From assembly GCA_938084135.1 (NCBI GenBank), contig CALKDS010000006.1, forward strand, positions 1 through 62,831: a stretch of 62,831 nt of DNA, written 5' to 3'. A program made the position numbers and the translations under genes. Below are positions 5,919 to 8,180 of this stretch, piece by piece (within the stretch, counting starts at the first letter, position 1; every line of letters starts with the position of its first letter). The DNA comes from an uncultured Flavobacteriales bacterium (lineage in GTDB: Bacteria > Bacteroidota > Bacteroidia > Flavobacteriales > Schleiferiaceae). The notes beneath the pieces were generated by a model. The model worked only from the letters and a program-made list of their open reading frames with translations, was not told the origin of the DNA and searched no databases.

Positions 5919-8180
5919 ATGAAAAGTATAAAATTATTAAGTCTATTTTTAGTGCTATGGATATGTCTTTTTTCCTGCAATGTTAGCAATGATGACTATT
6001 ATACAGATGGAAATTCTGGGGCCACGAAAAAAAGTTTATCAAATAAAATAGCTTCAAGCAATAGCGATTGGTGGCCAAATCAACTCAACCTATCTATTCT
6101 CCGTCAAAACTCAAATCTCTCAAATCCAATGGACGAAGATTTTGATTATCAGGAAGCTTTTAAAAGTTTAGATTATTTTGCTTTGAAGGAAGATATTAGA
6201 AAAACATTAACAGATTCTAAGGATTGGTGGCCTGCAGACTATGGTCATTATGGAGGGCTTTTTATTCGTATGGCTTGGCATAGCGCAGGGACCTATCGGA
6301 CAGGAGACGGAAGAGGTGGGTCAAGGGCTGGGCAGCAGAGGTTTGCTCCAACAAACAGTTGGCCTGATAATACTAATTTGGATAAAGCAAGAAGACTACT
6401 TTGGCCTGTTAAGAAAAAATATGGCAATAAAATTTCATGGGCGGATTTAATGATTTTAACAGGTAATGTGGCTCTTGAGGACATGGGATTTACAACATTT
6501 GGTTTTGCAGGAGGAAGAGCTGATGTTTGGGAACCGGAACTTAATGTCTACTGGGGAAAAGAAAATAAATGGCTCGATGATCAGCGCTACAGAGGGGATC
6601 GTGAATTAGAGCACCCATTAGCTGCTGTTCAAATGGGTTTAATTTATGTCAACCCAGAGGGGCCTAATGGGAATCCAGACCCCTTATTAGCGGCAAAAGA
6701 TATAAGAGAGACTTTTGGAAGGATGGGAATGAATGACGAAGAGACAGTTGCCCTTATTGCAGGTGGCCATACTCTGGGTAAAACCCATGGTGCAGGACCC
6801 GCATCAAACCTCGGATCTGAGCCTGAAGCAGCAGATATTACACAACAGGGACTTGGTTGGGAGTCTACGTATAAAACAGGGAAAGGAAAAGATGCGATAA
6901 CTTCAGGTCTTGAAGTAATATGGACTCAGCTGCCAACCCAATGGAGTCATTTGTTTTTCTTTAATTTATTTGAAAACGAATGGGAATTAACTAAAAGTCC
7001 TGCGGGAGCACATCAGTGGGTTGCTAAAGATGCAGAATTATCTGTTCCAGATGCTTTTGATGACGAAACCATGCATAAACCCACTATGCTAACTACAGAT
7101 TTATCACTAAGGTTTGACCCCATTTATGAAAAAGTATCAAGAAATTTTTACGAGAACCCAGAATATTTTGATGACGCTTTTGCTAGAGCTTGGTTTAAGC
7201 TTACCCATAGAGATATGGGCCCAAAATCTTGTTACTTGGGACCTGAAAAGCCAGAAGAAGATTTAATCTGGCAAGATCCAATTCCTAGGGTTAATCATAA
7301 ATTGGTTTCCCCTTCAGAAGTTAAAGAATTAAAAAAAGAAATTTTAAATTCTGAATTATCAATTAGTGAATTGGTCAGTACAGCCTGGGCTTCAGCGTCA
7401 ACATATCGGCACTCAGACCGCCGGGGAGGAGCTAATGGCTCTAGGATAAGGCTAGCTCCCCAAAAAAATTGGGAGGTAAATAACCCAGAACAGCTCAAAA
7501 AAGTACTAACATCGTTATCTCAGATTCAGACAATATTCAATCAAAGACATTCTTCTGCAAGAATATCATTGGCAGATCTTATTGTTCTCGCGGGGAATAC
7601 AGCTGTTGAAAAAGCGGCTTTAAATGCAGGACAGAAATTAGAGATTGTTTTTACTCCGGGCCGAATGGATGCCAAAGAAGATCAAACAGATATCAAATCT
7701 TTTGAGCTTTTGGAACCCATGGCTGATGGTTTTAGAAATTATCTTAAAACTGAATATACTATTGCTACTGAAGAGTTGCTTATTGATAAAGCTCAGTTAC
7801 TCAGATTAACCGCACCAGAGATGACAGTTTTATTAGGAGGGATGAGATCCTTAGGGACAAATTTTGATGGATCTAAACATGTCGTTTTTACTGACAATAA
7901 AAATCAATTGACAAATGAGTTTTTTGTGAATCTTCTTACTATGGATTTGGAATGGAAATCCCTGGATGACACCAAGGAACTTTTTGAGGCCACAAGTACT
8001 GGAGATGAAATAAAATATACCGCAACTCGTGTCGATTTAATTTTTGGATCTAATTCTGAGCTGAGGTCCTTAGCTGAAGTATATGCAAGCAATGATGCAA
8101 ATAAAAAGTTTGTAAGTGACTTTGGAAATGCTTGGGCAAAAGTCATGAATTTAGATCGCTTTGATTTAATTTATAAATAA
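5919..8180 (+). CDS. katG: Catalase-peroxidase KatG with lipoprotein signal
   Basis: Bifunctional haem catalase-peroxidase that removes hydrogen peroxide. The usual two-domain KatG is visible. The distal site R117-W120-H121 lies in [13 protein letters not shown]. The adduct-forming tyrosine is in [13 protein letters not shown] and the methionine in GRMGMNDEE. The proximal histidine is in [12 protein letters not shown] and the switch arginine in [10 protein letters not shown] place the start at ATG 5919 (753 residues) rather than GTG 5895, because it opens a clean signal [20 protein letters not shown] with a lipobox cysteine at 20. Most KatG proteins are cytoplasmic; this one should be exported and lipid-anchored, with a 70-residue linker before the enzyme. 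It converges with the next gene, only 9 bp between stops. Confidence 0.95.

Follow-up and report, generated by a model that had tools for sequence, protein, structure and literature searches.

The locus studied here raises the question of why a catalase-peroxidase (KatG) would be sent out of the cytoplasm, and from which partner a haem peroxidase held at the membrane would receive its electrons. It lies in a stretch of 62,831 nucleotides, hereafter the window, from an uncultured member of the Flavobacteriales (Schleiferiaceae; contig CALKDS010000006.1). To our knowledge, there is no agreed physiological electron donor for KatG. Most bacterial KatGs are non-secretory according to the available part of a 2014 phylogeny (PMC4232752), and KatG appears in the cellular proteome of a coculture in the available part of another report (PMC7029141).

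The katG gene and its export signal

The reading frame opens with an ATG at 5919, behind an in-frame stop at 5886, and encodes a complete KatG (Table 1). The NCBIfam models TIGR00198 (1171.7 bits against a cut-off of 770.25, residues 42-751) and NF011635 (1237.9 bits against a cut-off of 981) begin to match at residues 42-43 and run across both domains, the best PDB relative found with phmmer, 5l05_A, aligns with residues 46-750, and a Pfam scan returned only the peroxidase family (PF00141), in two stretches. Eleven catalytic sites were checked across 30 related KatGs, called here the motif group, which comprises the 28 genes with the full tether motif described below and two near-misses (L160 and L016). 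Alignment columns were used for this check because strict catalytic-residue patterns missed members in which adjacent residues vary. R117, W120, H121, D150, Y243, M269, H284, S329, W335, D394 and R431 are invariant in all 30; from work on KatG, we take the checked sites to be the distal Arg/Trp/His, the proximal His/Trp/Asp and the residues of the Trp-Tyr-Met adduct. The window KatG should be active as an enzyme, as far as its residues tell. A structure prediction reached a mean pLDDT of 55, too poor for judging reach to the haem.

Table 1. Features of the katG locus (positions in the window).
Feature	Position	Strand	Remark
katG	5919..8180	+	753-residue catalase-peroxidase with export signal; ORF and TIGR00198
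Sec/lipoprotein signal (predicted), residues 1-20, lipobox LFSC	5919..5978	+	sequence; lipoprotein by crude script; also in G929
Variable tether, residues 21-29	5979..6005	+	5/9 positions changed relative to G929
ApbE flavinylation motif (putative) DGNSGAT, residues 30-36	6006..6026	+	fits D-x-x-[S/T]-G-A-[S/T]; conserved in clade
Proposed FMN site, codon of Thr36	6024-6026	+	last motif residue
14-residue spacer, residues 37-50, to first catalytic-domain Trp	6027..6068	+	14 in 26/30 motif-group KatGs
Two-domain KatG body, residues 51-753	6069..8177	+	catalytic residues intact; two stretches match PF00141

Residues 1-20 begin with a basic stretch, continue into a hydrophobic core and close with the lipobox LFSC at Cys20 (codon 5976-5978). 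Leaders were classed throughout by a crude script and by eye, not by a dedicated signal predictor; both ways of reading, together with the same kind of signal in the syntenic KatG of G929, a genome of the same genus, bear out the lipobox signal that a previous sequence-only reading had placed in the first 20 residues. The linker behind it is shorter than the 70 residues then proposed: Cys20 ends the signal, the string DWWPNQLNL starts at residue 50 and the models and structure match from residues 42-46, so that the linker counts about 30 residues. The NDDYY that follows Cys20 would be a candidate signal for lipoprotein surface display, and the removal of peroxide at a sunlit cell surface, put forward in the sequence-only reading, is a conjecture. 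By the crude script, a signal is carried by all 30 KatGs of the motif group, and 19 of the 28 full-motif leaders fall into the lipoprotein class and 9 into the ordinary Sec class (L013 and L024 should swap classes by eye, which leaves both totals unaffected). The signal and the homologues thus support the export of the window KatG as a lipoprotein, as had been claimed, although the lipid anchor is not constant among its relatives: on the leaders read here, export and motif are stable in the motif group, while the anchor comes and goes.

A putative flavinylation motif on the tether

The main distinctive feature of the window KatG, absent from the sequence-only reading, is the heptapeptide DGNSGAT on its tether, a predicted target of the flavin transferase ApbE. 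According to the available part of a 2025 review (PMC12052999), ApbE recognises D-x-x-[S/T]-G-A-[S/T] and places FMN on the last residue, seven residues being enough for tagging and an N- or C-terminal tag working best. DGNSGAT is the sole match to this pattern in the whole window, where shuffling gave 0.04 matches on average and at least one match in 4 of 100 shuffles. A Pfam scan found no FMN_bind domain in the window KatG; such a domain is usual in ApbE substrates and is not required by the seven-residue rule. In the motif group, 25-45 residues precede the motif Asp, and the members that depart from the modal distance between the motif Thr and the first Trp have 12-16 residues there.

Occurrence of the motif among KatG homologues

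In four overlapping genome sets, protein searches matched a KatG in 15 of 22 genomes for the genus (E up to 1e-30), in 128 of 296 for the order (E up to 1e-50), in 175 of 395 for the class (E up to 1e-250) and in 153 of 296 for the phylum (E up to 1e-290); in the scan of genome contigs the best 80 KatG loci were kept. Since the sample consists of best matches and chosen others and leans to near relatives, the counts given below are not population frequencies. The leader survey covered 223 loci, from which three that are not KatG (L083, L084, L115) and one with no usable start (L148) were set aside, the remaining 219 ORFs giving 207 distinct proteins. A signal was recognised by the crude script in 151 of these 207 and none in the other 56, so the earlier statement that KatG is nearly always cytoplasmic fails in the neighbourhood of the window KatG, at least in this near-relative sample.

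The full ApbE motif is present in 28 of the 207 distinct KatGs, all of them signalled, and in none of the 56 unsignalled ones, as expected for the target of a periplasmic enzyme. The KatG of G929 (L253, also L246) adds one further full-motif gene to the 28; 27 later loci (L224-L243 and L257-L263, some of which repeat earlier genomes) have no full motif. Partial forms are found on both sides: the signalled near-misses read EGYSGAT (L160) and DGWSSAT (L016), L212 has SGAT inside the signal itself, and three unsignalled KatGs (L134, L206, L211) have a [ST]GA[ST] string that lacks the Asp. The window and the loci together supply 766 distinct ORFs of at least 150 residues, 330,957 residues in total. 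The pattern D..[ST]GAT is present 27 times in this set, always among the N-terminal 100 residues of an ORF of KatG size, with KatG over-represented in the set because most loci were fetched for their KatG. A plasmid collection gave 1006 records with a KatG match; in the 12 of these 1006 that were listed, the alignment begins no earlier than query residue 38, behind the motif.

CP motifs are known haem regulatory motifs, a role that is putative in KatG leaders. Scored as a Cys followed by Pro or Val and a hydrophobic residue, the CP motif occurs in none of the 28 full-motif KatGs and in 173 of the 179 others. The 118 exported KatGs of the CP type carry it after the signal, much as cytosolic KatGs carry it near the N terminus, but at a looser spacing: the CP-to-Trp distance has a mean of 28.4 residues (sd 7.0) in these 118 and of 20.1 (sd 1.3) in 55 unsignalled KatGs. 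As a tight arm length is also a property of cytosolic KatGs, a fixed arm alone is no proof of electron transfer. Two exported CP-type KatGs (L103 and L107) have STGAT, again with no Asp, downstream of the CP motif, which might represent weak or second flavin sites.

Phylogeny and conservation of the motif

A FastTree phylogeny was built from 201 catalytic domains with the leader excluded. On this tree the motif label, given to the 30 rows of the motif group, needs 2 changes, whereas the lipobox versus ordinary signal needs 20 among the signalled rows, and the smallest starred set that includes the window holds the 30 motif rows and 10 CP rows. A quick IQ-TREE of 66 catalytic domains places the 28 full-motif KatGs, the two near-misses with their altered motifs and one CP-type KatG (L092) in a clade of 31 with an SH-aLRT of 98, the only support measure used. 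This clade was defined with no use of the leader, and given the tree, 28 of its 31 members hold the full motif; L092 has a CP leader in place of the motif.

Core identity within the motif group is 68-96% (median 78%). Across its 30 rows, which were chosen as carriers of the motif or a near-motif, the motif A and T are never replaced, and D, S and G are each replaced in a single row; 2 different codons encode the Asp, and 4 each encode the Ser, Gly, Ala and Thr. An alignment of 19 motif-group KatGs shows that only D30, S33, G34, A35 and T36 are invariant between Met1 and Asn48, an invariance that derives in part from the selection of rows, while the rest of the leader varies freely. Between the window and G929, five of the nine tether residues ahead of the motif differ, the only residue change in the motif is at its free third position (Asn to Ser), and the codons of the motif show synonymous changes at Asp, Gly, Ser and Gly, with identical Ala and Thr codons. 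The 26 rows with modal spacing were shuffled by column 200,000 times, all rows being scored only where the first row held the motif. The first row held it in 394 shuffles, of which 5 attained 24 of 26, the count in the real rows. Among 23,600 shuffled linkers of the exported CP type the motif arose 19 times, whereas the 118 real linkers have none.

Gene neighbourhood and redox partners in the genome

The katG of G929, whose product is 88% identical to the window KatG, is flanked, as in the window, by genes for an M16 peptidase and Omp85. The M16 protein of the window shares 98% identity with that of G930 and 92% with that of G929, both of the same genus. In G930 (locus L252) a gap of 104 bp separates the M16 and Omp85 genes, and the genome gave no KatG match at E up to 1e-30; katG was thus probably lost there and would be dispensable. 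The gene is thus missing from the genome that is closest by its M16 protein and present in the less similar G929. A mis-binned contig was rejected as the origin of the locus, as G930 and G929 keep the gene order and G929 has its KatG at the same place. Eight other KatGs of the genus are, by eye, unsignalled CP types; they are 58-72% identical to the window KatG, and those alignments that cover the N terminus start near residue 45.

The surroundings do not tie katG to a flavin transferase. Apart from KatG, no neighbouring family or cluster recurs in more than 3 of the 30 motif loci, some of which have short flanks, and tblastn with the ApbE and NqrC of the same genome as the window found no relative of either in the 30 loci, in L253 or in the window. 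An operon partner or linked reductase was also sought by reading 15 neighbours of nine loci by eye, with the same outcome. With no recurrent neighbour and no linked ApbE or NqrC, support from gene context is absent. Elsewhere in the window, two genes of the alpha-amylase family and a GH65 gene stand in a row on the - strand (23665-29775), likely a starch or maltose locus.

The genome to which the window belongs (1.56 Mb, 79.85% complete) has one ApbE match (PF02424, E 1.1e-61) on contig C5, with a leader that ends in a lipobox of its own, and an NqrC with an FMN_bind domain about 2.9 kb away. This NqrC (L115:2-694) bears DGISGGT, in which SGGT takes the place of the SGAT type known from the literature, so SGAT is only a putative substrate of this ApbE. 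All 28 genomes searched for an ApbE have one, namely 24 entries with a motif or near-motif KatG (among which G300 and G178 look like one genome and G298 shows a fragment only) and 4 chosen carriers of a CP-type KatG; being found in the latter too, it does not discriminate between the two types. In this genome, about 80% complete, no match was found to a PepSY_TM reductase, to Catalase (PF00199) or to CCP_MauG, and in the absence of the last two KatG is the only catalase seen there.

Alternative explanations

Several explanations could be issued for a signal and a flavinylation motif on KatG. That the enzyme is cytoplasmic, with a start further downstream and a signal that is a misread extension, is highly improbable, even though eight KatGs of the genus have, by eye, no signal. 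These are of a different type, sharing 58-72% identity and alignable from about residue 45. The sequence-only reading had itself named a start downstream of the signal and homologues lacking the extension as signs against export, and neither check spoke against it: the window leader has no Met other than Met1 ahead of the catalytic domain, which disfavours a downstream start, and nor do 9 of the 29 other motif-group leaders (Met starts only, GTG and TTG not being weighed), while a signal precedes all 30 catalytic domains of the group.

It is somewhat unlikely that KatG is exported with an arm that merely resembles the ApbE motif, carries no flavin and has a structural role, for example as a dimer contact. 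The partial conservation of the residues that follow the motif (K, S, S/T, N, A, T), the lack of any gene context linking katG to ApbE and the equally fixed arm length of cytosolic KatGs are all in agreement with such a role. A purely structural arm does not readily account for the rarity of the motif in the shuffles, where only 5 of 200,000 column shuffles matched the observed count of 24 in 26 rows (scored if the first row had the motif) and the exported CP linkers had it in 19 of 23,600 shuffled and 0 of 118 real cases, nor for the variation of the free motif positions next to constant D, S, G, A and T, nor for the lack of the motif in all 56 unsignalled KatGs. An attached FMN that serves another purpose, passing electrons to soluble acceptors, docking the enzyme to a respiratory complex or taking electrons from the protein, also seems unlikely, and a little more so. 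The roles of ApbE substrates are indeed varied, in the literature available in part, and electron flow to the haem is inferred here; but the motif belongs to a haem peroxidase in which its distance to the catalytic domain hardly varies, and every catalytic residue checked is kept. An exported KatG with a covalent FMN on its tether as dedicated haem reductant is the explanation we prefer, and we give it about an even chance of being right.

Proposed mechanism and comparison with known systems

In the preferred explanation, KatG would be exported by Sec, lipidated on Cys20 and kept at a membrane by its short tether. Near the inner membrane ApbE, itself a predicted lipoprotein, would move FMN from FAD onto Thr36 of DGNSGAT. 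The tethered FMN, 14 residues ahead of the catalytic domain, could then accept electrons from the respiratory chain or from another extracytosolic donor and, once reduced, hand them to the high-valent haem, with two conceivable outcomes: (i) haem stalled at low peroxide would be rescued, or (ii) KatG would act as a membrane-fed peroxidase. The proposal of FMN on Thr36 as a tethered haem donor joins a need and a precedent. In the available part of PMC8115020, stalled ferryl haem needs quenching by a reductant, the KatG channel apparently admits small-molecule reductants, and KatG peroxidase activity alone is too slow for scavenging; in that of an eLife survey (PMC8238504), the flavinylation motifs of fumarate and urocanate reductases are thought to supply the active site with chain electrons.

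The window KatG has the complete two-domain architecture of the cytosolic KatG/HPI family (TIGR00198; PDB 5l05 and others) together with its catalytic residues, the Trp-Tyr-Met trio among them, and differs from the 56 unsignalled KatGs, which have neither signal nor flavinylation motif, in having both. We know of no lipobox or flavin tag in Legionella KatA or the KatG of E. coli O157:H7. These two are periplasmic KatGs by their titles in a reference list, placed outside the cytoplasm as is proposed here, and they are precedents for the concern, raised in the sequence-only reading, that an exported haem enzyme would have to take up its haem there. The flavinylated fumarate and urocanate reductases, as far as the accessible texts describe them, are exported redox enzymes with an ApbE motif thought to be fed by chain components encoded elsewhere, as would be the case here, but they are flavoenzymes, whereas the window protein is a haem peroxidase with a bare seven-residue tether motif. 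The flavin-tag peptides in the available part of PMC12052999 likewise consist of a minimal terminal motif of seven residues with no FMN_bind domain; those are engineered, whereas the motif of the window KatG is natural and conserved. The cytochrome c peroxidase Ccp, in what was available of PMC8115020, reduces peroxide facing the periplasm and fed by respiration, as is proposed for KatG, although it belongs to another enzyme family with another donor, and the present genome has no CCP_MauG match.

No description of a flavin-tagged KatG was found in the literature, a weak absence given that preprints and most subscription journals lie outside the coverage. The strings "catalase" and "peroxid" are absent from the main text of two flavinylation surveys, PMC8238504 being one of them, and neither "peroxidase" nor "catalase" occurs in the ApbE review PMC12052999; by title, nothing dealt with a lipoprotein KatG in Bacteroidetes or flavobacteria.

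If the preferred explanation is true, the built-in flavin would name a donor for KatG, and ApbE flavinylation would reach haem peroxidases by way of a bare seven-residue tag. The survey also suggests that the Bacteroidota hold many exported KatGs. More tentatively, and with slightly less confidence than doubt, we propose that a lineage of this phylum turned KatG into a membrane-anchored flavo-haem peroxidase, in which an FMN hung on the tether by ApbE would be the dedicated donor and would couple respiration to the reduction of peroxide outside the cytoplasm.
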